Assembly (NCBI RefSeq): GCF_012935695.1
Contig: NZ_CP052859.1
Location: forward strand, 1,343,001-1,407,000
Source of the DNA: Pseudomonas sp. ADAK18
GTDB lineage: Bacteria; Pseudomonadota; Gammaproteobacteria; Pseudomonadales; Pseudomonadaceae
Reading direction: 5' to 3'
Length of the DNA stretch: 64,000 nucleotides
A program made the translations under genes and the position numbers. This document shows, in pieces, positions 3,471-61,071 of the stretch. The notes beneath the pieces were generated by a model. That model worked only from the letters and a program-made list of their open reading frames with translations, did no database searches and was not told the origin of the DNA. Each line of letters begins with the position of its first letter. Within the stretch, counting starts at the first letter, position 1.

Positions 3471-3477
3471 GTTGTTG

Positions 3478-4248: not shown

Positions 4249-4253
4249 GTTTT

Positions 4254-4282
4254 CTATTTATCGTATTAATGCGGATAAATAG
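4254..4282. promoter_or_regulatory. Candidate GntR operator (9-bp inverted repeat)
   Basis: The arms 4254-4262 (CTATTTATC) and 4274-4282 (GATAAATAG) are perfect inverted copies with an 11-bp spacer. They lie 6-34 bp upstream of the ATG of the GntR regulator. The position suits an autoregulatory operator. The spacing is wider than a canonical FadR box, so the assignment is an inference. Confidence 0.5.
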
Positions 4283-4384
4283 TACTTAATAGGGCTTGGA
4301 GCGAGGCGTCAACGGAGGGTGTCGTTTTCAGTAAAAAAGGGTCGTAATCGAGGCTGGCACAATCATGACCGTTCCTTGCGCGTG

Positions 4385-6007: not shown

Positions 6008-6127
6008 CAGCGGTCCTGGATTGCCATTTTTCGAGGCGACGTTTTACCAAGGACTGCAGGGGAGGAATGTAGGTGAAAATGACGCTGGATGTACGAAAGA
6101 GGACTTTTGATTTTCGGGTCGAGTTGT

Positions 6128-20295: not shown

Positions 20296-21726
20296 TTATT
20301 GCTCGGCGGTTGCCAGGCTTGGCCACTGTGCCCACGCGCCACCCAGCGCCGTATACAGGTTCACCTGCGCCACCAGTTGCGCCAACCGGTCGGCAATCAA
20401 CATCTGCTGCGAACTGAACAGCGAGCGTTGTGCGTCCAGGAACGTCAAGTTGCTGTCCACGCCGCTGCGGTAGCGGTGTTCCGCCAGGTCGTAGTAGGCC
20501 TGGTTGGCCTGCACGAAGTCCCGTTGCGCCTCCAGTTGATCGTTGTAGGTCTGCCGTGCGGCGAGGCCGTTGGAGACTTCCTGGAAGGCGGTCTGGATGG
20601 ACTTCTCGTATTGGGCGACGAGGATGTTTTTCTGGATCTTCGCGTAATCGAGGCTGGCCCGCAGGCTGCCGGCATTGAAGACCGGCAGGTTGATCTGTGG
20701 CTGGAACGTCCAGCTTCCCGAACCGCCCTTGAACAGTCCTGACAGGTCCTTGCTGGCGCTGCCGGCATTGGCGGTCAAGGTGAGGGAGGGGAAAAACGCG
20801 GCGCGGGCGGCGCCGATGTTGGCATTGGCGGCCTTTAGTTGGTATTCGGCCTGGAGAATGTCCGGGCGCCGTTGCAGCAGGTCTGATGGCAGCCCGGCCG
20901 GGACCCGGGCAATCAGGTCGCCATCCAGTGGGCGTGCGGGCAGTGTTTCGGGGACCGGGCCACCGACCAGCAAGCTCAGGCTGTTTACGTCTTGGGCAAC
21001 CTGGCGCTGATAACGGGCGACGCTTGCCCGCGTGCTTTGCACACTGGTGCGGGCCTGGATCACGTCCAGCGAGGAAGCCTTGCCGGCGCTTTTGCTGCGG
21101 GAGGTCAAGCGCAGGCTGCGCTCGTCAACTGCCAGGGTTTTCTCTGCCAGGGCCAGCAGCTCCTGGTCGGCACGCCAGGTCAGGTAGCCGTTGGCGACGT
21201 TGGCCACCAGGCTCAGTTGGGCGCTGCGCCGGGCTTCTTCGGTGGACAGGTAGGTCTGCATGGCCTGCTCACTGAGGCTGCGCACGCGTCCGAAGAAATC
21301 CAGTTCATAGGCGCTGATTCCCAGCGTCGCCGAATAGGAGGAGGTGATGGCGGATTTGCCAGTACCGGTGATGTCGCCCGGTAGTTTCTGGCGCTTGCCG
21401 GCGCCGCTGGCGGACACGGCCGGGAACAGGTCGGCCCGTTGAATGCGGTACTGCGCCTGGAACGCTTCCACGTTCAAGGCCGCCACTCGCAGGTCACGGT
21501 TGTTGGCCAGGGCGTCGCGGATCAACTGCTGCATCGCCGGGTCATGAAACAGGTGCTGCCAGTCCGGTCCCGAGGCTGTATCGACCCCCGTCAGCGCGGC
21601 GGTGTAGGCCGGGCCCTGAGGGTACTGCGCAGGGGTGGGTGCTTCGGGTTGTTGGTAGTCCGGGATCAGCGAGCAACCGCCGAGGATCCACGCAACCGTC
21701 ACCAAAGAGATGGGGAGCTTGCTCAT
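20296..21726 (-). CDS. NodT/OprM-family outer-membrane efflux lipoprotein of the lipopeptide locus
   Basis: A 476-residue outer-membrane channel protein. The signal sequence ends in a lipobox (ILGGCS, Cys18). Two repeated OEP halves follow, with typical signatures ([24 protein letters not shown], cut here as [30 protein letters not shown]; and [20 protein letters not shown]). It trimerises in the outer membrane and docks with a periplasmic adaptor. It lies beside the LuxR regulator and NRPS1 at the edge of the synthetase locus, so it is the likely exit duct for the MacA/MacB pair encoded at the far side. That pairing is inference from context. Confidence 0.88.
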
Positions 21727-21792: not shown

Positions 21793-22599
21793 TTAGGCGC
21801 CGACCATCCATTTGGCCAGGCCATGGCGGCCACTCACCCCCAGCTTGGCGGCGGCGCGTTTGAGATAGGTTTCGATGGAGCTGTTTTTTACGCTGAGCTT
21901 CTCGGCCATCTGCGGTACGGTGCCGCCGGTCAACAGCCCCAGGCAGACTTCCTGTTCTCGCGCCGACAGGGTGATGTCACTGAGGGACAGGCGCTTGTAG
22001 AACTCACGCTGCAACTGTGACTGTTCCAGCAACGTTTGCGATTCCACCGCCCCGTTTACCGGCTCGGCCCGTAGGGCTTGTCGGCTGGCCTGGGCGTGCC
22101 GCTCGATCAACGGCAGCAAGGTGTCGGACAGACGTTTGAGAAATGACAACTGCGCCAGGGAGAACACCGGTTGTGTATGCGGGCGGTAAAGCGAAATCAC
22201 GTAGCGACGATTGGCCCTGCGTGACACCAGATTGCACTGATGGGACGTGCCTCGCACATGGGGACTATTGGCTTTGGCGTTCATCTGGATCAGCAGCGAA
22301 TCATCCATGCCCAGCATTTCCTTGAGCAGCGGGTGATCGTTGCGATGGTGCAGGGTGCGCGGTGCGGGTAGGTCTTCCTTCAAACCGGCGCTGCCCAGCA
22401 ATGTAATGTCCAGTACGCTGGCCTGTTGCTCGTCCAGGGTCCACTCACTGAGGTCCACCAGGTGAGCCGGCACCAGTTTGTCCACCAAGTGCAGCATCCG
22501 CGTTGCAAAGTGCTCATTGCCTGTACTTGAAATCAACTCTCCCAATTCGAAATAGAAATGTGGGCTTTCCATCTGTCGAATACTGCTGATCAGGCTCAT
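21793..22599 (-). CDS. LuxR-type transcriptional regulator, upstream side of the NRPS locus
   Basis: A 268-residue regulator with a C-terminal GerE helix-turn-helix (LSAREQEVCLGLLTGGTVPQ, then MAEKLSVKNSSIETYLKRAAAKLG). Its long N-terminal part has no recognisable autoinducer-binding, receiver or PAS signature. This is the class of LuxR activators flanking Pseudomonas lipopeptide synthetases (ViscAR/MassAR type). Three in-frame starts exist; the ATG at 22599 was chosen because AAGGA lies 9 nt before it. A candidate RsmA/RsmE motif covers that ribosome site. It is divergent from NRPS1 and very likely activates it. Confidence 0.88.
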   Translation of the reverse strand: MSLISSIRQMESPHFYFELGELISSTGNEHFATRMLHLVDKLVPAHLVDLSEWTLDEQQASVLDITLLGSAGLKEDLPAPRTLHHRNDHPLLKEMLGMDDSLLIQMNAKANSPHVRGTSHQCNLVSRRANRRYVISLYRPHTQPVFSLAQLSFLKRLSDTLLPLIERHAQASRQALRAEPVNGAVESQTLLEQSQLQREFYKRLSLSDITLSAREQEVCLGLLTGGTVPQMAEKLSVKNSSIETYLKRAAAKLGVSGRHGLAKWMVGA

Positions 22600-23102
22600 A
22601 TACATCCATCCTTGATGTCGAAAACCGTCAACGGTTGCCGGGTGCATCAGCAGACCGTCCGTACTCCTTAAACGTAATGCGGCGCTCGAGATTTTATTTA
22701 GCCATACAGATTTGTCCTACGTATGTAGCGGAAACGGGGGACACAACCTGCCATAGAATCCAGGAAATGAGTTCGCTATTTCTGACAGGCGGAAGATTTT
22801 TGGTCTGATCAATAGTAGTTTTTAGAGTTATTTAACTAGTTGATAAAAAACAATTTTTGTTGATGTCTCAGGCTCATTAGTTAGCTAGGCATCGGAAGAA
22901 AATGGTCAATCTCCTACATTCATTTAATCGTTTCAGCAGTGAACGTTTAGCCAGCCCGGTTTTTGGACACCGACACCGGTCCTCTAAAGCCTCGAACTGT
23001 CCGGGTTTCGGGTGACAGACAGTCCCGGGAGGCAGTGCTTAAATCCGTTGATTTCGCCTGAACGGGCAGCCTTGCGCGCCCTCTGGACACCCCTCCCATG
23101 AG
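22600..23102. other. Divergent promoter region between luxR and NRPS1
   Basis: About 500 bp without a gene. A distinctly AT-rich core lies at about 22690-22935, unlike the GC-rich surroundings. It should contain the promoters and regulator sites for luxR and NRPS1. I did not find a convincing lux-box palindrome by eye. Confidence 0.55.
22606..22615 (-). promoter_or_regulatory. Candidate RsmA/RsmE site over the luxR ribosome-binding site
   Basis: On the minus strand the leader reads UCAAGGAUGG, matching the A/U-CANGGANG-U/A consensus except at the last base. The GGA is part of the only plausible Shine-Dalgarno sequence for the ATG at 22599. Binding there would block translation, the usual mode of Gac/Rsm control. 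Confidence 0.5.
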
Positions 23103-26100
23103 ATGGACCTTATGACGCTTTTTTCTACCACTGCCGTGGGCGACGTTGCTGTGAACGAGGCTTCTTGTGGCACCTTGCCGGTGTTCCCGCTCACCGCCGC
23201 ACAGCGGGATATCTGGCTTGACCAACTGCGCCTCGGCGACTCGCCGCTGTACAACATTGGTGGTTATGTCGACCTTGCGGGCCCTGTCATTCCCGAACTG
23301 ATCCAGCGAGCGGTAGAACTGTTGGTGTTCAAGCACGATGCATTGCGCACAGTGCTGCTGCTCGATGGCGATGGCATGCCCCGGCAAACCTTCACCTCAG
23401 CATTGGCGGTGCAGGTGCCGTTGCACGACTTTTCCACCTTGGCTGATCCACAGGCTGCGACCCAGGCCCTGATGCAGCAGCAGATGGCGCAGGTCTATTC
23501 CATGGAGCGCGGGCCCTTATTCCGCTTCTTCCTGGTCAAGCTCGATGACGATCATTACCGCCTCGGCACCCAGGCTCACCACCTGATTCTCGACGGCTGG
23601 GGCTTTGGTCAGATGCTGCAATCCCTGGCCGGGATCTACTGTGCCCTGGAGCAGGGCCGCCAGCCGGACTTGGTGGCGCCGTCCTATATCGACTTCATCG
23701 ACAACGATGAACACTATCGCGAGTCGGCCCGTTACGCCCGCGACCGAAAGTACTGGCTGGATAAATACCAGGCCCTGCCCGAGCCGCTGCTGGTCCCTCG
23801 TTATCGCCCGCACCGCGACAACGACCAGGCGCCCAGCAACACGCTGGTGCAGCCGTTTCCCGTGGCCTTGCTGGACCGTATGGAGCAGGTTGCGAACCGC
23901 TACCAGGCGTCGGCGTTCCACGTCTTGCTGGCGGCGATGTACGTGTATTTCACCCGTACCACGCAGCGCCAGGAGTGGGTCGTCGGGCTGCCGATTCTGA
24001 ACCGCTCCAACGCGCGCTTTCGTTCGACCCTGGGGCTGTTCGCCCAGGTCAGCGCCGTGCGCTTTCAGTTCAACGAGCAACTGCCTTTCAGTGCACTGGT
24101 GCGCGGTGTGCGTGATCAGCTCAAGCAGGATTTTCGCCACCAGCGTTTCCCCTTGAGCGAGATGAATCGCGAGTTGGGGCTATTACAAGCAGACCGTGGC
24201 CAGTTGTTCGACCTGTCGGTGTCCTATGAGCAGGATGATCATGATTACCGCTACGGCCAGGCCATGGCCCATGCGATCAAGGTCTCCAACCATCATGAGC
24301 AACTGCCGATTGCCATCCACCTGCGCAGCAATCGCTACAACCACACCGCTTGCCTGCACTGCGTCTACAACCAGGCCTATTTCCAACACGACGAGGTGCA
24401 GGCCCTGGCGGAGCGCTTTACCCATGTGCTGGAACAGGGGCTGGAAGACACCACCTTGCCGGTGGCTGGGTTCTCGCTGCTGACGCCCCGTGAAGCCGAG
24501 CAATTGCGGCACTGGAATGCGACGGCTCAGGCTTACCCCCCCGGGCAAACCCTCCACCAGCGCATCGAAAACCAGGCGGCACTGACGCCGGATGCCGTAG
24601 CCGCGCTGTACCAGGGCCGGCCACTGACCTATGCCGAGTTGAATCGGCAGGCCAACGGGTTGGCGCATTACCTGTTGGAGTTGGGCGTTCAACCCGACGA
24701 CCGCGTGGCCATCGTCGCCCGGCGCGGGCTGGAGACGTTGGTGGGCTTGCTGGCAATCCTCAAGTCCGGTGCCTGTTATGTGCCGGTGGATCCGTCCCAT
24801 CCGGCTGAACGCCTGAACTACCTGCTCAGTGACAGCGCGCCGGTGGCGGTGCTTACGCAGCAGGAGTTGCTGGCACGCTTGCCGGCCCTTGATGTGCCGG
24901 TGATCAACTTGGATCAACCTGCCTGGCAGCAGCATTCGACGGCCAACCCGCAAACGGCCGTGACGCCCACCCACCTCGCTTACCTCATCTACACCTCGGG
25001 CTCCACCGGGCAGCCCAAAGGGGTGATGGTGGAGCATCACACCGTGGCCAACTTGGTGGACTGGCATTGCCAGGCTTTCGGTCTGGGTCAGGGCAGCCAT
25101 ACCGCCAGCGTTGCCGGTTTCGGCTTCGATGCCATGGCCTGGGAAGTCTGGCCGGCCTTGTGCATCGGTGCGACCCTGCATCTGCCGCCAACCCACGACG
25201 GCGCGGAAGACATCGACGCGCTGCTGGACTGGTGGCGCGCACAACCCCTGGACGTGTGTTTCCTGCCCACTCCAGTGGCTGAATACGCCTTCAGCCAGAA
25301 CCTCGAACACCCGACCCTGCGCACCTTGCTGATCGGTGGTGACCGTCTGCGCCAGTTCGCCCGCGCCCAGCGCTTCGAGGTGATCAATAACTACGGCCCT
25401 ACCGAAGCCACGGTCGTGGCCACTTCAGGTCGGGTCGAGGTGGGCCAGCCATTGCACATTGGCAAGCCCATCGCCAATGCCACGGTGTACGTGCTGGACG
25501 AGCAGCAGCGTCCGGTCCCTGTGGGTGTTGTCGGCGAGCTGTACGTTGGCGGCAAAGGCGTGGCGCGGGGCTATTTCAACCGTCCGGAAATGACCGCAGA
25601 ACGCTTTCTCGACGACCCGTTCAACCCCGGCCGCCTGTACCGCACCGGCGACCTGGCGCGCTGGCTGGAGGACGGTAACCTTGAGTACCTGGGGCGCAAC
25701 GACGACCAGGTGAAAATCCGTGGCGTACGCATCGAACTGGGGGAAATCGAAGCCGCGCTGGCCAGCCATCACGGGATCGCCGAAGCCGTGGTCCAAGTCC
25801 GTGAGGGACAATTGCTGGCCTGGTTTACGGCACCTGAACCTGCGGCAATCGACGCGCTTCGTGCCCATGTGCAATCCCGCGTGCCGGACGCGATGGTCCC
25901 CGTGGCCTATATGAAACTGGACGCGCTCCCATTGACCGCCAACGGTAAACTCGACCGCAAGGCCTTGCCGGCGCCAGGGCCGGAGGCTTTTATCACCCGC
26001 CGCTATGAAGCCCCGCAGGGGGCTGTGGAAACCGCCCTGGCACAGATCTGGGCCGAGGTGTTGCAGGTCGAGCGGGTAGGGCGCCAGGACCATTTCTTCG

Positions 26101-29100
26101 AACTGGGTGGGCATTCCCTGCTGGCGGTCAATCTGGTGCAGCGCATGCGCCACGCCGGGTTGCAGGCTGATGTTCAGGTGTTGTTTGGTCAACCCACTCT
26201 CGCGGCGTTGGCCGCTGCGGTGGGGGTTGGGACGGAGCTTGAGGTCGCGGCCAATCGCATCCCGGCCGATTGCACACGCATTACCCCGGACATGCTGGCG
26301 TTGGCTGAGCTGGATCAAGTGACGATCGATCGCGTCGTCGCCGCGATTCCCGGTGGTGCTGCCAATGTGCAGGAGATCTATCCGTTGGCACCGTTGCAGG
26401 AAGGTCTGCTCTACCACCATGTGACCGACGAGCGTGATCCCTACCAGCAACACGCGATGTTCACCTTTGCCGGGCGCGAGCAGCTGGACGCCTTTGCCGA
26501 GGCCTTGCAACAGGTGATCGCCCGACATGACATCCTGCGCACCAGCCTGGTCTGGGACGCCATCGAGCAACCGATGCAGGTGGTCTGGCGCGAGGCACGG
26601 CTGACGCTGGAGCAGATGACACTGCCGGGCGATGCCATCGTCGACCGGTTGCGCGAACACTTCGATCCACGCCAGCGACCGTTGGACCTGCGCCAGGCCC
26701 CGATGATGGCCTTGGCGTTTGCCGAGGACCCGCAGAACAACCGTTGGGTCGGCATGTTGCGCTTCCATCACCTGGTCAACGACGCAACGTCAACCACTGT
26801 ACTGATGGACGAAATCCAGGCCCACATGCAGGGTCAGCACCAGCGGTTGCCCGCGCCGATTGCCTACCGCAACTTCGTCGCTCAAACCCGCGCACCGGAT
26901 CGTCAGGCCCGGCATGAGGCGTTCTTTCGTGAGCGTCTGGGGGATATGGATGAGCCGACCCTGGCCTTCGGTTTGCAGGAGCGCCAGGCGGATCGTCGCG
27001 AGACACAAGAAGTCGAGTGCGTGCTGCCCGACGCCCTCGGCCAGCGTCTGCGGCTACAGGCACGTACTCTGGGCGTCAGTGTGGCGAGCCTGTATCACCT
27101 GGCCTGGGCTCATGTACTCGGCAAGGTCTCGGGACGTGACGACGTGGTATTTGGCACCGTGTTGCTGGGTCGTTTGCAGGCGGGAGAGGGCGCGGACCGT
27201 GCCCTGGGCATGTTCATCAATACCTTGCCACTGCGTCTGCGGCTGGCCGGGCAACGGGTGCGCGATGCGGTCCTGGACACCCATCGTCAACTGAGCGCCT
27301 TGCTTGCCCATGAACAGGCTTCCCTTGCGTTGGCCCAGCGTTGCAGCAGCCTGCCGGCCTCCACCCCTCTGTTCAACAGCCTGCTGAACTACCGGCACGG
27401 TTTGGCCGACGATGATCAAGGGCTGCTGCGGGGTGTACCGGGGGTCGAGTTGCTGAGCAGTGAAGACATTCTTAGCTATCCGTTGATGCTCACTGTGGAT
27501 GACCTGGCCAGCAGTTTCCGGCTCAAGGCCAAGGCACCGCGTAAGGTCGGCGCCCAATGTTTGCTGGATTACCTGGGCACTGTACTGGCAGGGTTGGTGC
27601 AAGTCCTTGAACAGAAGCCGGATACGCTGCTGGGCAAGGTTGCAGTGATACCAGCGGCCGAGCTGCAGCAGTTGTTGGTCGATTTCAACGCCACTGAAAT
27701 CGATTACCCCGCGCACTTCACCGTCCAAGGGCTATTCGAGGCCCATGTTCGGGAGATTCCTGACACCGTGGCGGTGCAAGCGAGTGAGCGGCAACTGACG
27801 TATCAGCAGCTCAACGAGCGCGCTAACCAACTAGCCCACCACTTGCGCGAGTTGGGTGTGCAGCCAGATGCTCGGGTGGCGTTGTGCGTTGAGCGCGGCC
27901 CGGAACTGGTGGTGGGATTGCTGGCGATTCTCAAGGCGGGTGGCGCCTATGTGCCCATGGATCCCGGCTATCCCCGAGAGCGCTTAGCCTACATGTTGCA
28001 AGACAGTGCCCCCGTGGTGTTGCTGGTCCACGGCCCGACTCGCGACTTGCCGGGGGACGTCACTATGCCGGTGATCGACTTTGACCGCTGCGTCTGGCAG
28101 CACCAACGGCTGACCAATCCCGAGATCCCCGGCTTGAGTGTCGATAACCTCGCTTACGTGATGTACACCTCTGGCTCCACCGGCACGCCCAAAGGTGTGA
28201 TGGTCGAACATCGTGGCCTGGGTAACCTGATGCTCTGGGGGGCACGGCTGTGCCCGAATGCTCGGGGGGGGGCCTTGTTGCAGCGGGCGCCGTTCAGCTT
28301 TGATGGTTCGGTGTGGGAGCTGTTCTGGCCATTGGCCAATGGCATGCGCCTGGTCTTGGCACGACCCGATGGGCATCGCGAACCGTCCTATCTGGTGCAA
28401 GTGATCCGCGAACAGTCCATCACCGTGATCAAGTTCGTGCCGGCCATGCTGCAACAGTTCCTCGAACTGGAAGAGTCCAGCCTCTGCACCAGCCTCACCG
28501 ATGTGTTGTGCGGTGGCGGCGAACTCACCGAAGCCCTGGCCCGAGGCGTCCAGGCTCGCTTGCCCAAGGTTCGCCTGCACAACGTCTACGGCCCTACTGA
28601 AGCCACCGTCGATAGCAGCGCCTGGACCCTGGAGCCGGGTGCACCGGTGCCGTCGGTGCAGTTGCCCATTGGCCGGGCCATCAGCAACACCCGGCTGTAT
28701 GTACTGGACGAGCACGATCAACCGGTACCCGTGGGCGTCAGCGGCCAGTTGCATATCGGCGGCGTGGGCGTTGCCCGGGGTTACCTGGGGTTGGCGCAGA
28801 TGACGGCCGAACGTTTTATCGACAGCCCGTTTGTGGCGGGTGATCGCCTGTACCGCACCGGGGACCTGGTGCGTTACCTGCCAGACGGTAATCTGGAGTT
28901 TCTCGGTCGCAACGACTTCCAGGTCAAGCTGCGGGGCGTTCGCCTGGAGCTGGGAGAGATCGAATCGCGTCTGGCCGCCCACCCGGCGCTACGTGAAGTG
29001 GCGGTGCTGATTCGCGATGAGCGACTGGTGGCCTACTTCACCGTTCGCGGTGAGACGCCAAGCCTTGAGAGTTTGCGCATCCATGTGCTGGAGCTGTTGC

Positions 29101-29510
29101 CGGAATACATGGTGCCGTCGGCGTTTGTGCAGCTTGAAGCGCTGCCCCTGAATCCGGCTGGCAAGCTCGACCGCAAGGCCCTGCCGGAGCCGGGGTTGGA
29201 GGCCGTGGTGAGTCGTACCTACGAGGCGCCGCAGGGCGAAGTAGAAACGCTGATGGCCGGCATTTGGGCCGAAATGTTGAAGTTGGAAAGGGTGGGGCGT
29301 CATGATCACTTCTTTGAACTGGGCGGGCACTCATTGCTGGCGGTAGGCCTGGTGGCGCGCTTGCGCAAGGCGGGACTGGAGGTGGATGCGCGGACCTTGT
29401 TCAGCCAGCCGACGCTGGCGGGGTTGGCGGGTAAGGTGGGGGCGCTTGTGCAACGGGTGGAGGTGCCGCAGACGTTGATTCCGCAGCTGGATCGGCGGCG
29501 TAGGCTTTGA
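23103..29510 (+). CDS. Lipopeptide NRPS 1: Cstart-A(Leu)-T-C-A(Glu/Gln)-T
   Basis: A 2135-residue, two-module non-ribosomal peptide synthetase. A starter condensation domain (HHLILDG, His159-160) should N-acylate the first residue with a 3-hydroxy fatty acid. Domain 2 is adenylation (core YTSGSTG at 630) with pocket residues D-A-W-F-L-G-N-V-V, the Leu code. The carrier has Ser1005 in LGGHSL. The second condensation domain (His1222-1223) is of the dual C/E type but has degenerate motifs (HHLVNDATS, and HHVTDERD without GD). The second adenylation domain (core at 1688) reads D-G-W-K-L-G-V-V-D; Lys278 fits an acidic or amide side chain, so Glu or Gln. The second carrier has Ser2077. There is no thioesterase, so the chain passes to NRPS2. 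The start may be the ATG at 23112 instead. Confidence 0.95.
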   Translation: MDLMTLFSTTAVGDVAVNEASCGTLPVFPLTAAQRDIWLDQLRLGDSPLYNIGGYVDLAGPVIPELIQRAVELLVFKHDALRTVLLLDGDGMPRQTFTSALAVQVPLHDFSTLADPQAATQALMQQQMAQVYSMERGPLFRFFLVKLDDDHYRLGTQAHHLILDGWGFGQMLQSLAGIYCALEQGRQPDLVAPSYIDFIDNDEHYRESARYARDRKYWLDKYQALPEPLLVPRYRPHRDNDQAPSNTLVQPFPVALLDRMEQVANRYQASAFHVLLAAMYVYFTRTTQRQEWVVGLPILNRSNARFRSTLGLFAQVSAVRFQFNEQLPFSALVRGVRDQLKQDFRHQRFPLSEMNRELGLLQADRGQLFDLSVSYEQDDHDYRYGQAMAHAIKVSNHHEQLPIAIHLRSNRYNHTACLHCVYNQAYFQHDEVQALAERFTHVLEQGLEDTTLPVAGFSLLTPREAEQLRHWNATAQAYPPGQTLHQRIENQAALTPDAVAALYQGRPLTYAELNRQANGLAHYLLELGVQPDDRVAIVARRGLETLVGLLAILKSGACYVPVDPSHPAERLNYLLSDSAPVAVLTQQELLARLPALDVPVINLDQPAWQQHSTANPQTAVTPTHLAYLIYTSGSTGQPKGVMVEHHTVANLVDWHCQAFGLGQGSHTASVAGFGFDAMAWEVWPALCIGATLHLPPTHDGAEDIDALLDWWRAQPLDVCFLPTPVAEYAFSQNLEHPTLRTLLIGGDRLRQFARAQRFEVINNYGPTEATVVATSGRVEVGQPLHIGKPIANATVYVLDEQQRPVPVGVVGELYVGGKGVARGYFNRPEMTAERFLDDPFNPGRLYRTGDLARWLEDGNLEYLGRNDDQVKIRGVRIELGEIEAALASHHGIAEAVVQVREGQLLAWFTAPEPAAIDALRAHVQSRVPDAMVPVAYMKLDALPLTANGKLDRKALPAPGPEAFITRRYEAPQGAVETALAQIWAEVLQVERVGRQDHFFELGGHSLLAVNLVQRMRHAGLQADVQVLFGQPTLAALAAAVGVGTELEVAANRIPADCTRITPDMLALAELDQVTIDRVVAAIPGGAANVQEIYPLAPLQEGLLYHHVTDERDPYQQHAMFTFAGREQLDAFAEALQQVIARHDILRTSLVWDAIEQPMQVVWREARLTLEQMTLPGDAIVDRLREHFDPRQRPLDLRQAPMMALAFAEDPQNNRWVGMLRFHHLVNDATSTTVLMDEIQAHMQGQHQRLPAPIAYRNFVAQTRAPDRQARHEAFFRERLGDMDEPTLAFGLQERQADRRETQEVECVLPDALGQRLRLQARTLGVSVASLYHLAWAHVLGKVSGRDDVVFGTVLLGRLQAGEGADRALGMFINTLPLRLRLAGQRVRDAVLDTHRQLSALLAHEQASLALAQRCSSLPASTPLFNSLLNYRHGLADDDQGLLRGVPGVELLSSEDILSYPLMLTVDDLASSFRLKAKAPRKVGAQCLLDYLGTVLAGLVQVLEQKPDTLLGKVAVIPAAELQQLLVDFNATEIDYPAHFTVQGLFEAHVREIPDTVAVQASERQLTYQQLNERANQLAHHLRELGVQPDARVALCVERGPELVVGLLAILKAGGAYVPMDPGYPRERLAYMLQDSAPVVLLVHGPTRDLPGDVTMPVIDFDRCVWQHQRLTNPEIPGLSVDNLAYVMYTSGSTGTPKGVMVEHRGLGNLMLWGARLCPNARGGALLQRAPFSFDGSVWELFWPLANGMRLVLARPDGHREPSYLVQVIREQSITVIKFVPAMLQQFLELEESSLCTSLTDVLCGGGELTEALARGVQARLPKVRLHNVYGPTEATVDSSAWTLEPGAPVPSVQLPIGRAISNTRLYVLDEHDQPVPVGVSGQLHIGGVGVARGYLGLAQMTAERFIDSPFVAGDRLYRTGDLVRYLPDGNLEFLGRNDFQVKLRGVRLELGEIESRLAAHPALREVAVLIRDERLVAYFTVRGETPSLESLRIHVLELLPEYMVPSAFVQLEALPLNPAGKLDRKALPEPGLEAVVSRTYEAPQGEVETLMAGIWAEMLKLERVGRHDHFFELGGHSLLAVGLVARLRKAGLEVDARTLFSQPTLAGLAGKVGALVQRVEVPQTLIPQLDRRRRL

Positions 29511-29643
29511 AGGGGCCGGCTTGAGAGCCACCCCCACAACCCACAACAAAGTGGTACGCCTTTCCCGCCCCGGCAGTTAGCATTGCGTCCATCCGCCCGA
29601 CATTCAACGGGCGGATCACCGCCAACCAGCCGGTCAAACAATA

Positions 29644-30654
29644 ATGGAACGACGCCAATTCAGCGGGGGTATGCAGGGGAAAAACCTGCGTTACCTGAAC
29701 GAAGCCCCTGGCCAAACACCGCAAAAGATCCAAACAGGCTTCCTGCTGCTCGAACACTTCTCGCTGCCAGCATTTACCCAGGCCCTGGATACGATCATCA
29801 CGGCAAACCTGCTGCGCCCCGGGCTCTTTTCCACCTGTACCTTCGGTTTGGGCGAAGGCGAGATCGTCAGCGACCTGGGCCTGGTCATTCGGCCAGAGGC
29901 GCGGCTTGGGGCCTCAGTGCTTCCCGAACTGGACTTGTTGGTGATTTGTGGCGGCTACCGTACAGCGCTCACGGCCAGTGACGAGTTCCTGCACCTGCTC
30001 AAGGCCGCATCGCAGCAGGGTGTCAGCCTGGCCGGGCTGTGGAATGGCGCCTGGTTCCTGGGCCGGGCGGGTGTGCTGGACGGTTATCGTTGCGCCATTC
30101 ACCCCGAGCATCGTCCTGCACTGGCAGAGATCGCCAAGGCGACCCAGGTCAGCAGCGAACCCTATGTGATTGATCGCGACCGACTCACCGCGTCCAGTCC
30201 CTCCGGCGCTTTCCACATGGCGCTGGACTGGATCAAAAGTGTGCATGGCAAGGCGCTGGTGGAAGGGATCGAGGACATTCTGGCGTTCGAAGAATCGCGT
30301 TATCGGCGCGTCAAACCGGTGACCCATATCTCGGTGAGCGCGCCATTGCGCGAGGTCGTGAAGTTGATGGAGGCCAACCTCGAAGATCCGTTGGCGCTGG
30401 ATCAGTTGGCGGTCTATGCCGGCCGTTCACGGCGACAACTGGAGCGCTTGTTCAGGGAGCAACTGGGCACCACCCCGCAGCGTTACTACCTGGAACTGCG
30501 CATCACCGAGGCGCGGCGTTTGCTCCAGCACACGGAAATGTCCCAGGTCGAGGTGCTGGTGGCCTGTGGTTTCGTGTCGCCCAGTCATTTCAGCAAATGC
30601 TACAGCGCGTTTTTCGGCTATCGGCCATCGAAGGAAACACGACGAGTCAAGTGA
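29644..30654 (+). CDS. GlxA-family AraC-type regulator (DJ-1/PfpI-like plus HTH)
   Basis: A 336-residue regulator lying between NRPS1 and NRPS2. Residues about 30-200 form a DJ-1/PfpI (class I amidotransferase-like) domain (IQTGFLLLEHFSLPAF, then LDLLVICGGYR and GLWNGAWFLGRAG). The usual nucleophile position reads NGAW, without Cys, so no enzyme activity is expected. Residues about 230-330 are an AraC/XylS double helix-turn-helix (LDQLAVYAGRSRRQLERLF, then EVLVACGFVSPSHFSKCY). Related Pseudomonas regulators (ArgR, GbdR, CdhR) sense arginine, betaine or carnitine. Its position interrupts the synthetase operon, and a terminator-like hairpin follows. Its role for the lipopeptide is unproven. Confidence 0.88.
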   Translation: MERRQFSGGMQGKNLRYLNEAPGQTPQKIQTGFLLLEHFSLPAFTQALDTIITANLLRPGLFSTCTFGLGEGEIVSDLGLVIRPEARLGASVLPELDLLVICGGYRTALTASDEFLHLLKAASQQGVSLAGLWNGAWFLGRAGVLDGYRCAIHPEHRPALAEIAKATQVSSEPYVIDRDRLTASSPSGAFHMALDWIKSVHGKALVEGIEDILAFEESRYRRVKPVTHISVSAPLREVVKLMEANLEDPLALDQLAVYAGRSRRQLERLFREQLGTTPQRYYLELRITEARRLLQHTEMSQVEVLVACGFVSPSHFSKCYSAFFGYRPSKETRRVK

Positions 30655-30766
30655 CCGACCGCTCTACGGTGCACGTGCAAGGTGTGTGCCGCCCCCTCTT
30701 GTCCCTACTTCCCATGTCACCCCCACTGACCTGAATGCTCTAGTTTTCCAACCCTGCGGGGAGCCC

Positions 30767-30795
30767 TGCGGCTGAACGCCGCACGCTGTTTTTTT
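30767..30795 (+). terminator. Probable terminator between the AraC-type gene and NRPS2
   Basis: A 6-bp stem TGCGGC/GCCGCA with a 5-nt loop is followed, after 5 nt, by seven T residues (30789-30795). It lies about 115 bp after the regulator's stop. The gap between stem and T tract makes it less than ideal. Confidence 0.5.
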
Positions 30796-30898
30796 GCGCA
30801 GCCCTCCCGGCAAACCCGCTCGTCTTCGGGCACTTGTGTGACAGCTGAAAACAGACTTTCTCCTCAACTGTATCCGACTCAAAAAGCAGGTTACTCCC

Positions 30899-55320
<24,422 letters not shown>

Positions 55321-55371: not shown

Positions 55372-55399
55372 TTGCCCTCAACACCTTTTGTGGTCATTT

Positions 55400-56551
55400 A
55401 TGGAAAAGTCGAAGTTTCGCAAGGTTGGATTAGGCCTGGTGTTGGTGGTTGCGGCGGGGTTGGTTGTCTATGCGGTGCAAGCGCCGGCGGACGCGCCGCA
55501 GTACCTCACCGCTACCGCTGAACGCAGCGATATTGAGAATGCAGTGCTGGCCACCGGTCTTCTGGAGGGCATCAAACAGGTGGATGTCGGTGCCCAGGTT
55601 TCCGGCCAGTTGAAGTCCCTCAAGGTCAAGCTTGGGGACAAGGTGAGGAAGGGGCAGTGGCTGGCGGAAATCGATCCGCTGATCTTGCAAAATACCTTAC
55701 GCAAAGCTCAGGTGGATGAGGAAAACCTCCAGGCCCAGCGCCGCGCCACTGCCGCCCAGCTCAAGCAGGCCAAGTCGGTCTACGAGCGTTATCAGAGGCT
55801 GCAGGACGACGAGTCGGTGTCGCGCCAGGATTTTGAGAACGCCGAGTCCAACTACCATGTGCAACAGGCCAACCTGTTGGCCCTGGATGCACAGATCAAG
55901 AGTGCGCACATTCAGATCGACACCGCGAAGGTCAACCTGGACTACACCCGCATCGTCGCGCCAATTGATGGCGACGTAGTGGGCATCGTTACTCAGGAAG
56001 GCCAGACCGTGATCGCTAGCCAGTTGGCGCCGGTGCTGCTCAAGCTGGCAGACCTGGACACCATGACCGTCAAAGCCCAGGTATCGGAGGCGGACGTCAT
56101 CCATATCAGCCCCGGCCAGCAGGTGTACTTCACCATTCTCGGCGAGGCCGACAAACGCTACTACGCCAAGCTGCGCGGTACGGAACCTGCGCCACAGAAT
56201 TTCCTGGACACCCAGCCCGCCGGTACTCCGAAACAGAACACGGCAGTGTTCTACAACGCGCTTTTCGAGGTGCCCAACGTCGACCACCGTCTGCGCATCG
56301 CCATGACCGCCCAGGTGCGCATCGTGCTGGATACCGCAAAGGCGGCGCTGACGGTGCCGGTGGCGGCGCTCGGCCCGCGCAATGCCGACGGCAGTTTCAC
56401 GGTGCGGGTGCTGGGTGCAAAGGGTAAGGCCACCTCGCGTAATGTCCAGACCGGTATCAATAACAACGTCAAGGTGCAGATCACCGATGGCCTGGTTGAG
56501 GGTGACCAGGTGGTGATCGGCGATGCTGCGCCAGCCGTGGCGGGGGGCTGA
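55400..56551 (+). CDS. macA: MacA-type periplasmic adaptor of lipopeptide exporter
   Basis: A 383-residue membrane fusion protein. A single N-terminal helix (about residues 8-27) anchors it in the inner membrane. It continues with a barrel-sandwich/lipoyl half (DVGAQVSGQLKSLKVKLGDK), a helical hairpin (about residues 90-160), the second lipoyl half (ARIVAPIDGDVVG region, read here as TRIVAPIDGDVVGIV) and beta-barrel/membrane-proximal domains. The ATG at 55400 was chosen over a GTG 12 bp upstream. The stop lies 3 bp before macB, so they are co-transcribed. It should link MacB to the NodT-type channel encoded at 20296-21726. MacAB pairs beside Pseudomonas lipopeptide synthetases contribute to product export. 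Confidence 0.92.
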   Translation: MEKSKFRKVGLGLVLVVAAGLVVYAVQAPADAPQYLTATAERSDIENAVLATGLLEGIKQVDVGAQVSGQLKSLKVKLGDKVRKGQWLAEIDPLILQNTLRKAQVDEENLQAQRRATAAQLKQAKSVYERYQRLQDDESVSRQDFENAESNYHVQQANLLALDAQIKSAHIQIDTAKVNLDYTRIVAPIDGDVVGIVTQEGQTVIASQLAPVLLKLADLDTMTVKAQVSEADVIHISPGQQVYFTILGEADKRYYAKLRGTEPAPQNFLDTQPAGTPKQNTAVFYNALFEVPNVDHRLRIAMTAQVRIVLDTAKAALTVPVAALGPRNADGSFTVRVLGAKGKATSRNVQTGINNNVKVQITDGLVEGDQVVIGDAAPAVAGG

Positions 56552-56554
56552 CGG

Positions 56555-58513
56555 ATGAGTCAGCCATTACTGGAACTTAAAGGCATTACCCGCAGTTTCA
56601 TGGCCGGCGACCGGGAGTTCATTGCCCTCAAAGGCATCGACCTGACGATCAATGCCGGGGAAATGGTGGCGATCACCGGGGCCTCGGGCTCGGGCAAGTC
56701 GACCCTGATGAACATCCTCGGCGGGCTGGATTACGCCACGGCCGGCAGCTACAAGATCAATGGCATCGAAACCCGGTCCCTCAACGATGAGCAGTTGGCT
56801 GAACTGCGTCGCGACTACTTCGGTTTTATCTTCCAGCGTTACCATTTGTTGGCGCACCTGAGTGCCTTGCACAACGTGGAAATGCCGGCAATCTATGCTG
56901 GCACGCCCCAAACCCAGCGCTACAGCCGGGCTGGGGAGTTGTTGGCTCGGCTGGGGTTGTCGGGGCATTTGACCCATCGGCCCAGCCAGCTTTCTGGTGG
57001 CCAGCAACAGCGGGTGAGTATCGCCCGGGCGCTGATGAATGGCGGCGAAGTGATCCTCGCCGACGAGCCCACCGGTGCTCTTGATACCCACAGCGGTAAG
57101 GAAGTGATGCGTATCCTGGCGGAGTTGCACGCGGCCGGGCACACCGTGATTATCGTTACCCACGACCCGAAAGTGGCAGCCAATGCCCAGCGGATTATTG
57201 AGGTGCGCGACGGCGAGATTGTCAGCGATCGCGCCAACGAAAGTAGTGGCCTGGATCTGCCCAACGAAGTCCCCATCGAGCCCAAGCACAGTGGTCCACG
57301 GCGCTTGGTGGCCAGTCTCGGGTTGTTCAAGGAGGCTTTCAACATGGCTTGGGTGGCGCTGGTCTCCCATCGTATGCGCACCTTGTTGACCATGCTTGGT
57401 ATCGTCATCGGCATCACGTCTGTGGTGTCGATTTCGGCTATTGGCGAAGGTGCCAAGCGCTATGTGCTCAAGGACATCCAGGCCATTGCGAGCAACACCA
57501 TCGACATCTTGCCCGGCACCAGTTTTGGTGACAGCCGGGCCTCGGCTATCGAGACCCTTCTACCCTCCGATGTGGACGCGCTGAACCAGCTGTACTACGT
57601 GGACAGCGCAACCCCGATGGTGGGCCGCAACCTGCTGTTGCGCTACGGCAACATAGACGTGGATGCTCAGGTGAACGGTGTCAGCGACCGCTACTTCCAG
57701 GTCAAGGGCCTGAAGCTGGAAGCCGGCATTTCTTTCAGCGAAAGCGATGCCAGGCGTCAGGCGCAAGTAGTGGTGATCGATCACAACACCCGTCACCGGC
57801 TTTTCGGCGCGGGGGTGGATCCGTTGGGCCAGGTGATCCTGATCGGCAACCTGCCGTGTACGGTGATCGGCGTGACGAAGGAAAACAAGAACATGTTCGC
57901 CGCCAGCAAGGCTCTTCAAATCTGGGTGCCTTATGAGACTGCGGCCGGTCGGTTATTGGGGCAGCGCCATCTGGACAGCATCACCGTGCGCATCAAAGAC
58001 GGGCAGCCGAGCAAGGTGGTGGAAGATAACGTCAACAAACTCATGCAGCAGCGTCACGGTACTAAGGATTTCTTCACCAACAACCTCGACAGCATCATGC
58101 AGACGGTGCAGAAAACCAGCCGTTCCCTGACGTTGCTGCTGTCGTTGATTGCGGTGATTTCGTTGCTGGTGGGCGGGATTGGGGTGATGAATATCATGCT
58201 GGTATCGGTCACCGAACGTACCCGCGAGATTGGTATTCGCATGGCGGTTGGAGCGCGGCAGTCGGATATTCGTCAGCAGTTCCTGGTGGAGGCGGTGATG
58301 GTCTGCCTGATTGGCGGGATGATCGGCATCTCGCTGTCGCTGGGCATCGGTTTGTTGTTCTCGTTGTTCGTCAAAGAATGGGAGATGGTGTTTTCCGTGG
58401 GCTCGATCGTCACCGCGTTTGCCTGTTCGACAATGATCGGTATCGTGTTTGGCTTTGTACCGGCGCGCAATGCGGCGCGGCTGGATCCTATCGAAGCGTT
58501 GGCGCGGGATTGA
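56555..58513 (+). CDS. macB: MacB-type ABC exporter (ATPase plus FtsX permease)
   Basis: A 652-residue exporter. The N-terminal ATPase (residues 1-230) has Walker A GASGSGKST, signature LSGGQQQR and Walker B ILADEPTGALD. A linker leads to the first membrane helix (about 275-300), a large periplasmic MacB domain (about 300-520), and three C-terminal helices with the FtsX signature (GGIGVMNIMLVSVTERTREIG and FGFVPARNAARLDPIEALARD, given here as GIGVMNIMLVSVTERTREIG). The length is normal for MacB. It acts as a dimer with MacA and an outer-membrane channel, moving substrate from the periplasm outward. Its position after the synthetases marks it as the probable lipopeptide exporter. Confidence 0.93.
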   Translation: MSQPLLELKGITRSFMAGDREFIALKGIDLTINAGEMVAITGASGSGKSTLMNILGGLDYATAGSYKINGIETRSLNDEQLAELRRDYFGFIFQRYHLLAHLSALHNVEMPAIYAGTPQTQRYSRAGELLARLGLSGHLTHRPSQLSGGQQQRVSIARALMNGGEVILADEPTGALDTHSGKEVMRILAELHAAGHTVIIVTHDPKVAANAQRIIEVRDGEIVSDRANESSGLDLPNEVPIEPKHSGPRRLVASLGLFKEAFNMAWVALVSHRMRTLLTMLGIVIGITSVVSISAIGEGAKRYVLKDIQAIASNTIDILPGTSFGDSRASAIETLLPSDVDALNQLYYVDSATPMVGRNLLLRYGNIDVDAQVNGVSDRYFQVKGLKLEAGISFSESDARRQAQVVVIDHNTRHRLFGAGVDPLGQVILIGNLPCTVIGVTKENKNMFAASKALQIWVPYETAAGRLLGQRHLDSITVRIKDGQPSKVVEDNVNKLMQQRHGTKDFFTNNLDSIMQTVQKTSRSLTLLLSLIAVISLLVGGIGVMNIMLVSVTERTREIGIRMAVGARQSDIRQQFLVEAVMVCLIGGMIGISLSLGIGLLFSLFVKEWEMVFSVGSIVTAFACSTMIGIVFGFVPARNAARLDPIEALARD

Positions 58514-58726: not shown

Positions 58727-59455
58727 CTACAGGGTAGCGCCGTCTTGTGCCGAATACATCCACCGCAACAACGAATGCCGCCCGCTGATGCCCATCTTGA
58801 TCGCGGCACGTTTGAGGTAGCTTTCGATAGTGTTGACCTTCAGCGCCAGTTGCTCGGCCAACTCCGGTGCGGTACGTCCGGCCAGCATGCCGACACACAC
58901 TTCCAGCTCACGGCTTGACAGCTTCAGGTCCGATTGCGCCAGGCGTTCGTCAAAGCGTCGACGCAGGGTTTCGATGCCCTGATTTTCGCTGCTCTGGGTG
59001 AGGGCGCTGTTGTCATTGCTGCACGGCTGGATCGCGGCGATGTGTTTCTCGACCATGGGTAACAGCAGCGATGAGAAATCCTGCAGGATGATCCGTTCCT
59101 GGGCAGAAAAATTCTGCGACTGGTGCGAGCGATACACAGAGAGCACGTAATTGAAATCATCCTTGCGCCGAGTCAGGTGCAACTGAGCGGCGGGCCATGC
59201 GGGGTCGGATGCTGTGGGTGCTGTGTGGGTACTGCCGGCTATTGAGTCGGTGTACACCGGGAGCAGGCCTTCGACCCTTGAGGTGCATGCCTTGCGCTTC
59301 GGCTGGCCCTCTGAATTCACACGCAATTGCTTGATGTGCGTGGCATCCACATCCAGTTGGGTCAGTATCAGGTCATGTAGCATGCGCGGGAAGTGGCGGC
59401 TGCCGGTGCTGGCGATGACCTTGCCAATGTGTGGGAACAGGTGTGAGTTCATCAT
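58727..59455 (-). CDS. LuxR-type transcriptional regulator, downstream side of the NRPS locus
   Basis: A 242-residue regulator with a C-terminal GerE helix-turn-helix (LSSRELEVCVGMLAGRTAPE, then LAEQLALKVNTIESYLKRAA). Like its partner at 21793-22599 it lacks a recognisable ligand-binding or receiver domain. It corresponds in position to the ViscBCR/MassBCR regulators downstream of macB in known lipopeptide loci. The frame allows starts at 59464, 59455 and 59452. The GGA at 59462-59460 suits ribosome binding for the latter two, and 59455 was chosen. The same GGA lies in a full-consensus RsmA/RsmE motif. It is convergent with macB and probably co-activates the synthetases. Confidence 0.87.
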   Translation of the reverse strand: MMNSHLFPHIGKVIASTGSRHFPRMLHDLILTQLDVDATHIKQLRVNSEGQPKRKACTSRVEGLLPVYTDSIAGSTHTAPTASDPAWPAAQLHLTRRKDDFNYVLSVYRSHQSQNFSAQERIILQDFSSLLLPMVEKHIAAIQPCSNDNSALTQSSENQGIETLRRRFDERLAQSDLKLSSRELEVCVGMLAGRTAPELAEQLALKVNTIESYLKRAAIKMGISGRHSLLRWMYSAQDGATL

Positions 59456-59456
59456 T

Positions 59457-59466
59457 TCGTCCATGA
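59457..59466 (-). promoter_or_regulatory. Candidate RsmA/RsmE site at the second luxR start
   Basis: The minus-strand transcript reads UCAUGGACGA, matching all ten positions of the A/U-CANGGANG-U/A consensus. The GGA lies 4-7 nt before two alternative ATG codons. Occupancy would block ribosome access. Confidence 0.6.
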
Positions 59467-59732: not shown

Positions 59733-60983
59733 TTACTTGGCGTGTACCTCAAGCTGAACCGCTGGCTTTGTCACCGGAGTGCGCTTGATGCATTTGGCCA
59801 GGGCCTGCTGCACATCCGCCAGCAAATCGGCGACGTCCTCAAGGCCTGCCGACAGCCGCACCAGCCCTTCGGAAATCCCGTGATGGGCGCGTTCTTCGGG
59901 GGTGTAAGTGGAGTGGGTCATGGTCGCCGGGTGCTGGGCCAATGACTCGGCATCCCCCAGGCTCACCGCACGGCTGAACAGCTGGAGCGCATTCATGAAA
60001 CGCCGTCCGGTATCGATGCCACCCTTGAGTTCGAAGGCGATCATGCCGCCGGACAACTTCATCTGGCGGGCGGCCAATTCGTACTGCGGGAACGACTTCA
60101 GTCCGGGGTAGGTGACCCATTCCACCGCTGGGTGCGCCTGCAATGCTTCGGCGATGGCCTGAGCGTTACTGCAGTGGCGATCCATGCGCAGGGCCAACGT
60201 CTTGAGACCGCGCATCAACAGAAAAGCATCTTGAGGCGACAGTACGGCGCCGGTCAGATCCTTGAGGCCTTGCAGGCGAATTCGTTGGGCCAGGGCCTGG
60301 GTGGTGACGGCGATGCCAGCGGTGATATCACCGTGGCCGCTGAGGTATTTGGTGGCTGAATGCACCACCACATCGGCGCCCATTTCCAGAGGACGTTGCA
60401 GGTAGGGGGTGCAATAGGTGTTGTCCACCACCACGGTGATACCGGGCCGTTGGTGAGCGATCTCGGCTACGGCCGCGATGTCCACCAGTTGCAGATTGGG
60501 GTTGGCCGGGGTTTCGAAGTAGATCATGCGGGTTTGAGGCGAGAGTGCCGCGCGCAAGGCGGCCAGGTCCGATAGGTCGACATGGCGCACCTTGACGCCG
60601 AATTCGCCGATCCCGTGGTGCAGCAGGGCGAAGGTGCAGCCGTAGAGCGTCTGGCTGACGATGATTTCGTCACCTGGGCGCAGCAGGGTCCAGAAGGTGG
60701 CGGCGATTGCACCCATGCCGGAGCTGAAGGCCACGCCAGCTTCGCCGTTTTCCAGGGTGGCCATGCGTGACTCCAGCAGGGCCAGGGTCGGGTTGGAGAT
60801 GCGCGTGTAGAAGTGCCCGCGTTCTTCACCGGCAAAGCAGCCGGCGCCGTATTCGGCGGTGGGAAAGGCGAAGGTGGCGCTGAGGTAGATCGGCGGGATC
60901 AGGGCACCGTGGTGGTCTTGTGGATCATAGCCATGGTGGATGGCGCGGGTGGAAAAGCCGAACGTGTTGTGTTTATTGTTCAT
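59733..60983 (-). CDS. mdeA: Methionine gamma-lyase
   Basis: A 416-residue PLP enzyme of the Cys/Met metabolism family. It splits L-methionine to methanethiol, 2-oxobutyrate and ammonia in the cytoplasm. The sequence is closely similar to the P. putida enzyme: TLYGCTF places Tyr114 and Cys116 at the positions that distinguish methionine gamma-lyase from cystathionine lyases. VVVDNTYCTPY and HSATKYLSGHGD give the PLP Lys212. The start at 60983 (MNNKHNTFGF) is preceded by AAGGAG; the open frame upstream of it is not coding. The C-terminus is about 15 residues longer than I recall for P. putida. The divergent mdeR neighbour supports the call. Confidence 0.93.
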   Translation of the reverse strand: MNNKHNTFGFSTRAIHHGYDPQDHHGALIPPIYLSATFAFPTAEYGAGCFAGEERGHFYTRISNPTLALLESRMATLENGEAGVAFSSGMGAIAATFWTLLRPGDEIIVSQTLYGCTFALLHHGIGEFGVKVRHVDLSDLAALRAALSPQTRMIYFETPANPNLQLVDIAAVAEIAHQRPGITVVVDNTYCTPYLQRPLEMGADVVVHSATKYLSGHGDITAGIAVTTQALAQRIRLQGLKDLTGAVLSPQDAFLLMRGLKTLALRMDRHCSNAQAIAEALQAHPAVEWVTYPGLKSFPQYELAARQMKLSGGMIAFELKGGIDTGRRFMNALQLFSRAVSLGDAESLAQHPATMTHSTYTPEERAHHGISEGLVRLSAGLEDVADLLADVQQALAKCIKRTPVTKPAVQLEVHAK

Positions 60984-61071
60984 GGTCGGACGCTCCTTAT
61001 TTCCTACGATGCTATGCTCATAACCGAGGCCGAACGTTCCATACTTTGCCGGGAAAAGCCGGTGGGTTGGG

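Follow-up and report, generated by a model that had tools for sequence, protein, structure and literature searches.

A viscosin-lineage lipopeptide assembly line of Pseudomonas sp. ADAK18 whose specificity was probably rebuilt by homologous recombination

Nonapeptides of the viscosin family (viscosin, WLIP, massetolide, viscosinamide, pseudodesmin and pseudophomin) come from nonribosomal peptide synthetases (NRPSs) with nine modules distributed 2+4+3, tandem thioesterases (TEs), flanking LuxR-type regulator genes and a MacAB exporter. In the part of a survey used here, six sequence types are recognized, with positions 2, 4 and 9 the only variable ones (PMC9948697), and the corresponding part of a second source gives Leu, Ile or Val at positions 4 and 9 (PMC8777863). 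The poaeamide family (PPZPM, poaeamide A) has ten modules, the last with a dual epimerization/condensation domain and specific for Ile, and split clusters; the sections of the survey on which we draw derive the PPZPM branch from viscosin-type enzymes by duplication of the Leu7 module (PMC9948697). Orfamide synthetases have ten modules, with a terminal Val or Ile, in an unsplit cluster. Here we describe a cluster of Pseudomonas sp. ADAK18 contained in a 64-kb window (bases 1343001-1407000 of a 6471780-base genome in one contig; coordinates below are counted within this window). It shares with the viscosin family the architecture just named, together with Leu1, Glx2 (Glu or Gln), Ile/Val4, Leu5, Ser6 and Leu7, and differs from it by Ser3 (not Thr3), Leu8 (not Ser8) and Ser9 (not Ile, Val or Leu). 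Judged from its sequence, the locus very likely encodes an intact viscosin-lineage lipopeptide assembly line whose specificity was rebuilt by homologous recombination.

Three long NRPS open reading frames (ORFs; 2135, 4337 and 3803 aa), here called NRPS 1, 2 and 3 (N1, N2, N3; Table 1), hold nine condensation (C) domains above the Pfam cut-off, and a motif scan of them returned nine sets of adenylation (A) domain motifs, split 2+4+3, nine GGHSL carrier (T) motifs and, at the N3 end, two TE serine motifs, GWSFG and GHSFG, confirming the tandem TE of the initial annotation. Pocket residues were taken from an alignment to PheA and then checked on the printed strings, from which the F at position 278 of the Leu pockets was read, the alignment having a gap there. 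The residue assigned to each code is our assumption, backed by the same codes at matching positions in relatives. The pockets read DAWFLGNVVK in A1 (Leu), DGWKLGVVDK in A2 (Glx), DVWHMSLVEK in A3 (Ser), DAMFLGCTYK in A4 (Ile/Val) and DVWHMSLVDK in both A6 and A9 (Ser), with Leu pockets in A5, A7 and A8. ORFs, motifs and codes together bear out the previously proposed 2+4+3 arrangement and predict the order Leu-Glx-Ser-Ile/Val-Leu-Ser-Leu-Leu-Ser. Because the viscosin family varies at positions 2, 4 and 9 only, this product would fall outside the family definition, while the enzyme stands inside the lineage.

Where did this order come from? When named genomes were scanned with NRPS 1, 41 loci came up, of which those of P. 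fluorescens ISL-62 (92%), P. spelaei CCM 7893 (91%) and P. karstica CCM 7891 (86%) are the most similar. In ISL-62 the genes are laid out as in ADAK18, and the residue order is the canonical viscosin one, Thr3-Ile4-Leu5-Ser6-Leu7-Ser8-Ile9; the P. nabeulensis cluster, read in part, gives Thr-Val-Leu-Ser-Leu-Ser-Ile, and that of P. karstica, whose contig ends in N3 after module 7, has Thr3. ADAK18 A4 has the code also found in the Ile9 domains of both ISL-62 and P. nabeulensis. Ser3, Leu8 and Ser9 recur, in the same gene layout, in the P. spelaei cluster (L053-L055), which has a Val-type A4, so that the residue order of ADAK18 is not unique. In an rpoD tree that took in 13 of 22 genomes (ORFs of one strand only), ADAK18 is sister to ISL-62 (98.54%, support 0.982), with P. 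spelaei next (97.68%).

In steps of 60 residues, identity to ISL-62 is 86-100% in N1 except around A2 (residues 1440 to 1800), where it is 60-83%; in N2 it falls from 76-100% outside A3 to 26-70% inside it. The A3 tract itself is 26-71% identical to ISL-62, P. karstica and P. nabeulensis and 93-100% to P. spelaei; the change runs from the C-A linker to near the A-T linker, and C3 and T3 on either side of it stay ISL-62-like. In sliding windows, module 7 of N3 is collinear with ISL-62. Modules 8 and 9 then read as a C8-type C domain, an A7-type A-T unit, a further C8-type C domain, a Ser A domain and finally an Ile9-type end with the TEs (A6 is missing from this parentage, as its pool was built without the final module of every N2). 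Up to about 270 residues past its A3 sequence motif, A9 is a Ser domain; beyond that it resembles the end of the Ile9 module, placing the junction in the C-terminal part of A9. The change in N3 would thus amount to one inserted A(Leu)-T-C unit and one deleted terminal C-A(Ile) unit. As the deleted C domain was an epimerizing one, more than the pocket changed in the last module: viscosin-family enzymes, ISL-62 included, have a dual domain there, acting on Ser8 (motif HHLVMDH in ISL-62 C9), whereas ADAK18 C9 carries the LCL-type motif HHIVSDGWS.

These junctions would be explained by three steps. In module 3, a swap of the A domain between points near the C-A and A-T linkers would have exchanged Thr for Ser; an A(Leu)-T-C unit would have been added after Leu7; and a deletion reaching from the Ser A domain to within the C-terminal part of the final (Ile) A domain would have removed the dual C domain and the Ile pocket, leaving Ser beside the last carrier and the TEs. 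The initial annotation had supposed that a last module was lost, fusing a carrier to the TEs, in an orfamide-like enzyme. As a mechanism this agrees with the junction scan, but the enzyme in which it would have happened belongs to the viscosin lineage, possibly by way of a ten-module intermediate resembling the poaeamide group.

For domain comparison beyond these relatives, a TE search of 398 genus genomes from a larger group matched 144, and clusters were taken from 40 of the 144 by rank and gene length. Family labels of these 40 were assigned here from code order and gene length, in a reading in which the fourth code letter is unreliable for Leu, Ile and Val pockets; G161 was taken as P. poae DSM 14936 and G031 as P. 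trivialis DSM 14937, and G211 is ISL-62. P. spelaei apparently lies outside the 398 genomes, with no TE match near 98% among the matches listed. No N3 ending Leu-Leu-Ser was read in the 40 clusters, in a reading that missed A motifs in at least two of them (G350, G284). Protein searches, seen through the best 120 of 1795, 120 of 1435 and 120 of 802 candidates, are poor for counting relatives because scores add over repeated modules and long NRPSs rank first; the N3 protein cluster (P0087) has three member sequences.

The resulting pool of 271 A, 233 C and 44 TE sequences came from ADAK18, four relatives and the 40 other clusters; it holds no domains cut by sequence ends, and what the reference clusters contribute is chiefly N3 and a part of N2. 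Seven of the nine ADAK18 A domains (all except A1 and A2), all nine C domains and the TE were compared, and for each the nearest neighbours are viscosin-type relatives; the TE is nearest, after P. spelaei (98%), to ISL-62 and P. nabeulensis (78%). IQ-TREE quick likelihood trees and approximately unbiased (AU) tests covered 49 of the 271 A and 34 of the 233 C domains. In trees as in codes, modules 3 and 9 carry Ser domains, not Thr or Ile/Val ones.

The initial annotation favored descent from an orfamide-family synthetase that lost its tenth module. The residue order, as stated there, does equal orfamide positions 1-9 except for Ser3, ADAK18 shares the unsplit cluster with that family, and in the two orfamide-type N3 genes examined the first three C domains are also dual, LCL and LCL. 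The ADAK18 enzyme, however, has nine modules, the last for Ser, every compared domain lies nearer to viscosin-type relatives, and 21 LCL C domains of viscosin, poaeamide and ADAK18 type form one clade with support 100 in the quick tree. AU tests reject a grouping of ADAK18 with orfamide-type domains for A8 (p 0.000628), C8 (p 3.3e-5) and C9 (p 2e-53). Layout and identity are held in common with ISL-62, which in 400-bp DNA windows is the closest cluster for N1, for the stretch from C6 through module 7 and for most of the flanks. Orfamide ancestry was dropped on these AU results and appears very improbable; the ancestor was apparently a viscosin-lineage enzyme.

A common origin with the poaeamide group, in which N3 would be a poaeamide-type Leu-Leu-Ser-Ile protein lacking its last module and acquired through recombination, deserves more weight. 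The poaeamide-type protein of G161 has Leu7-Leu8-Ser9 with the same C types in the same order (dual, LCL, LCL), and ADAK18 differs by having no Ile10 module. FastTree joins ADAK18 A8 to three poaeamide-type A8 domains (0.93), a link that the AU test does not reject (p 0.237). Yet the quick IQ-TREE tree sets the poaeamide-type A8 domains beside P. nabeulensis A7 and away from ADAK18 A8, the grouping of ADAK18 C8 with poaeamide-type C8 is rejected (p 0.00265), and the TE is nearest to ISL-62 and P. nabeulensis. We consider this origin unlikely, if well short of negligible. ADAK18 C8 and C9 fall together in the quick tree with support of only 21.

LP9, as described in part of the survey, is a lipopeptide predicted from a putisolvin synthetase without three psoB modules (Cesa-Luna et al. 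2023, PMC9948697). Could ADAK18 be such a putisolvin-type enzyme with three modules cut out? The 2-4-3 layout is the same and the predicted order almost so, the two putisolvin-type N3 genes examined also have the dual-LCL-LCL series, and the scenario probably has a real example. Residues 3180-7431 of PsoB, used as query in a protein search, led to P0215 (4201 aa, six members, named P. putida), whose whole length aligns with PsoB 3228-7431 (modules 6-9) at 82% and gives the order Ser-Val-Leu-Ser, a few 100-residue windows matching other PsoB modules better. P0215 is probably the LP9 enzyme; it belongs to the putisolvin lineage, by module excision, and compares with Ser-Ile/Val-Leu-Ser in ADAK18 N2. 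For ADAK18 itself the evidence points elsewhere: AU tests reject a grouping of its C8 and C9 with putisolvin-type C domains (p 0.00384), its N2 matches that of ISL-62 outside A3, the N2 of P. spelaei (which has the ADAK18 layout) is only 63% identical to PsoB, and the putisolvin-type TEs (G142, G348) are 55-57% identical. With a viscosin-type parent at hand in ISL-62 and putisolvin rejected by the AU test, the LP9 identity was dropped for ADAK18 and is scarcely credible. If its neighbours are putisolvin-type Leu-Glx and Leu-X-Ser, P0215 would make nearly the ADAK18 nonapeptide from an unrelated enzyme.

What does the likeness to P. spelaei mean for a viscosin-lineage origin? In the same 400-bp windows, about 31.6-36.4, 38.0-40.0 and 47.2-58.4 kb are closest to P. 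spelaei, the last running from C8 to the end of macB. These tracts are mostly 95-98% identical in DNA, with 88-94% at their edges and in A9. Synonymous divergence (dS), computed by block between ADAK18 and relatives, is 0.351 to P. spelaei in N1 without its A2 part, reaches 0.375 for module 7 and falls to 0.142 in A3, 0.117 in C4, 0.143 in C8, 0.131 in A8T8, 0.113 in C9 and 0.117 from T9 to the TE. Against ISL-62, A8T8 has no dS value and the C8 value comes from 12 codons, the domains being unpaired in the alignment. A threefold drop in dS confined to the changed blocks is hardly what plain descent would produce, which suggests recombination after the species split: the changed tracts, one with the TE and macAB, would have been swapped, in either direction, between the ADAK18 and P. 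spelaei lineages, or both lineages would have received them from a third source. The macA and macB genes (55388-58513) are 95-98% identical in DNA to P. spelaei and 83-93% to ISL-62. As macAB lies within the P. spelaei-like tract, exporter and TE seemingly travelled together.

Several observations weigh against recombination in a viscosin-lineage enzyme as set out above, or blur its steps. No donor of A3 was found in the genome, where the best copies are A6 (80% DNA) and A9 (77%) of the same cluster; outside it, P. spelaei N2 (97%) is the only close one among the best 120 of 1435 candidates, the next standing at 77%, and the nearest Ser domains to A3 outside P. spelaei, themselves of the viscosin lineage, are 80-82% identical. 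For A8, a local copy of A7 (p 0.323) is about as good a fit as a link to the poaeamide A8, and the AU groups were chosen after a first FastTree run, which weakens the p values. Intermediate dS values to P. spelaei occur in C3 (0.209), C5A5T5 (0.221) and A6T6 (0.256), and that of A9 (0.264) is not low. With a TE only 78% identical to its ISL-62 counterpart, the choice of ring may have changed, and the codes leave Glu or Gln at position 2 and Ile or Val at position 4 unsettled. Finally, A9 may have been overwritten by gene conversion, blurring the deletion step: it is nearest to the cluster's own A6 (91%), versus 84% to ISL-62 A8, and P. spelaei shows the same A9-A6 pairing (93%). Because of these protein identities in both strains, the likeness of A9 (51811-53113) and A6 (42000-43500) suggests continuing gene conversion between the two Ser domains.

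The enzyme appears to be in use. Between ADAK18 and P. spelaei, the ratio of nonsynonymous to synonymous divergence lies between 0.037 and 0.158 for 12 of the 15 blocks; the other three, A2, A4 and C6, differ in type between the two strains and have 0.166-0.250. Low ratios speak for purifying selection. The P. spelaei cluster differs from that of ADAK18 by its Val-type A4, its C6 and a Gln-like A2 with Q at position 278, as in ISL-62, where ADAK18 has K. This K278 suggests Glu rather than Gln at residue 2, because K278 also occurs in the last (Asp/Glu) module of a gene that we take to be amphisin-type (G087), whose presumed Gln module has Q. The A2 core tract is nearer in DNA to P. karstica (82%) than to ISL-62 (76%) or P. 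spelaei (75%). In the parts of the survey at hand, Glu and Gln domains occur together within A2 clusters, and the Ile-type domain is described as promiscuous (Cesa-Luna et al., PMC9948697).

C1 would be of the starter type, as first annotated, given its position and an identity of at most 24% to C domains other than the C1 of ISL-62, P. spelaei and P. karstica. C3-C7 have dual-type motifs, C2 is dual-like if less clear, and C8 and C9 carry the LCL motif HHxxSDGWS, C-domain types being assigned from these motifs. As C3-C7 look like dual epimerization/condensation domains, residues 2, 3, 4 and 6 (and 5, if C6 is active) are likely D, and residues 7, 8 and 9 are likely L, since C8 and C9 are of LCL type and nothing epimerizes Ser9. 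The domain acting on Leu5, C6 (about 40800-42200), has 94% DNA identity to ISL-62 and 72% to P. spelaei; viscosin and WLIP types are told apart by the Leu5 configuration, according to the portion of the survey used (PMC9948697). Because C6 has diverged and this configuration separates the two types, the ADAK18 and P. spelaei products may differ in Leu5 stereochemistry.

By co-linearity, the starter C domain would join a 3-hydroxy fatty acid to Leu1, the chain would grow as Leu-Glu-Ser-Ile/Val-Leu-Ser-Leu-Leu-Ser, the tandem TE would free it, most likely as a 9:7 lactone closed on Ser3 as viscosin-group enzymes close on Thr3, and MacAB with an outer-membrane efflux protein (OEP) would export it as a surfactant, probably an antimicrobial one. 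The same enzyme might instead use Ser6 as the latch; the resulting Ser-Leu-Leu-Ser ring (9:4) would resemble the 12:4 ring of putisolvin. A putisolvin-type end has the same pattern as residues 6-9 (Ser-Leu-X-Ser) and the same C types as modules 7-9, and the ADAK18 TE has diverged and lies inside the tract shared with P. spelaei. That TE is nevertheless of the viscosin lineage, in which rings close on residue 3, and Ser3 is a workable latch: a synthetic D-Ser3 pseudodesmin analogue, listed among 'novel and non-natural' analogues, has the same activity as the natural compound in the part of that report consulted (PMC7187754). With that activity making a Ser3 latch chemically sound, we hold Ser6 closure to be improbable, albeit a serious alternative. 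The choice matters for shape and function because ring size sets the helix type, rings of more than five residues giving a stapled helix and smaller ones a catch-pole helix in the passages seen of a further study (PMC12948218). More speculative, and in our view rather doubtful, is that the module 3 A tract and the tract from module 8 to the TE and macAB form a co-selected package handed from one Pseudomonas species to another, turning a viscosin-type 9:7 stapled-helix peptide into one with a 9:4 putisolvin-like Ser-Leu-Leu-Ser ring, convergent with P0215/LP9.

Our literature search found no isolated compound with the ADAK18 order, in keeping with the annotation's remark that no named Pseudomonas lipopeptide is known to have it, and no paper covering both P. 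spelaei and lipopeptides; tables S1 and S4L of PMC9948697 may list P. spelaei or the cluster. Within that literature the predicted nonapeptide would be new as an isolated compound, its enzyme being of a kind already known, the viscosin lineage. The locus would present a natural, apparently maintained case of A-domain swap, unit insertion and terminal-module deletion in one lineage, with ISL-62 as a close unedited 'before' state and with junctions resolved finely enough to guide NRPS engineering. Its product would be the natural counterpart of the chemists' D-Ser3 pseudodesmin, and nearly the same nonapeptide from viscosin and putisolvin enzymes would point to selection on the sequence.

Table 1. 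Features of the lipopeptide locus in the ADAK18 window
Feature	Position	Strand	Evidence
OEP, likely export partner	20296..21726	-	Pfam PF02321; orthologue also adjoins clusters of G364, G286 and G308
LuxR-type (GerE domain) regulator, upstream of cluster	21793..22647	-	Pfam PF00196
NRPS 1: modules 1-2, Leu1 and Glx2 (Glu likelier), C1 starter type by position	23103..29510	+	ORF, motifs, pockets; best segment 92% to ISL-62
A2 core tract of NRPS 1, unlike ISL-62 (76.2% DNA) and P. spelaei (75.1%)	27489..28451, approximate	+	DNA windows, block comparison
DJ-1/PfpI and AraC-type regulator gene between NRPS 1 and NRPS 2	29644..30654	+	Pfam
NRPS 2: modules 3-6, Ser3, Ile/Val4, Leu5, Ser6, C domains dual epimerization/condensation by motif	30899..43912	+	ORF, pockets, motifs
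A3 swap tract: Ser-specific A domain, apparently replacing the Thr domain of viscosin-type relatives	32462..34081, approximate	+	identity per 60 aa, junction scan
NRPS 3: modules 7-9 and tandem TE, Leu7, Leu8, Ser9	43909..55320	+	ORF, motifs, pockets
Module 8: viscosin C8-type LCL C domain and viscosin A7-type Leu A-T unit (extra Leu)	47311..50370, approximate	+	sliding windows, trees
Module 9 C and A core: second viscosin C8-type LCL C domain, Ser A domain nearest own A6	50371..53113, approximate	+	sliding windows, trees
A9 end, carrier and tandem TE, like last (Ile9) module of viscosin-type relatives	53114..55320	+	sliding windows; TE 78% to ISL-62, 98% to P. spelaei
MacA-type membrane fusion protein	55388..56551	+	Pfam HlyD families
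MacB-type ABC exporter; ends the tract closest to P. spelaei	56555..58513	+	Pfam MacB_PCD, ABC_tran, FtsX
LuxR-type (GerE domain) regulator, downstream	58727..59464	-	Pfam PF00196

The LuxR pair, the OEP and MacA/MacB around the NRPS genes are the usual setting of Pseudomonas lipopeptide genes (Table 1). Published trigenic clusters have an untranslated 150-300 bp between the first two NRPS genes, as given in part of the survey (PMC9948697); in ADAK18 the DJ-1/AraC-type gene parts NRPS 1 from NRPS 2, and in ISL-62, with the same layout, its product is 97% identical. In DNA this gene is about equally near to ISL-62 and P. spelaei. In all ten other genomes examined, no NRPS match stands beside its orthologue (81-84%) in fetched stretches that span at most 20 kb and, on one side in G030, just 1.9 kb. 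Because such orthologues occur without an adjoining NRPS match, the gene is probably a bystander chromosomal gene that marks the integration site. In G030 and G032 its orthologue directly adjoins that of the gene at 59733-61211, the two lying 29 kb apart across the cluster in ADAK18. A second NRPS lies outside the window, roughly 24-33 kb before its start (G000:C1:1309653-1318724), as a 4330-aa open frame that, from its size, may be a PvdL-type pyoverdine enzyme.

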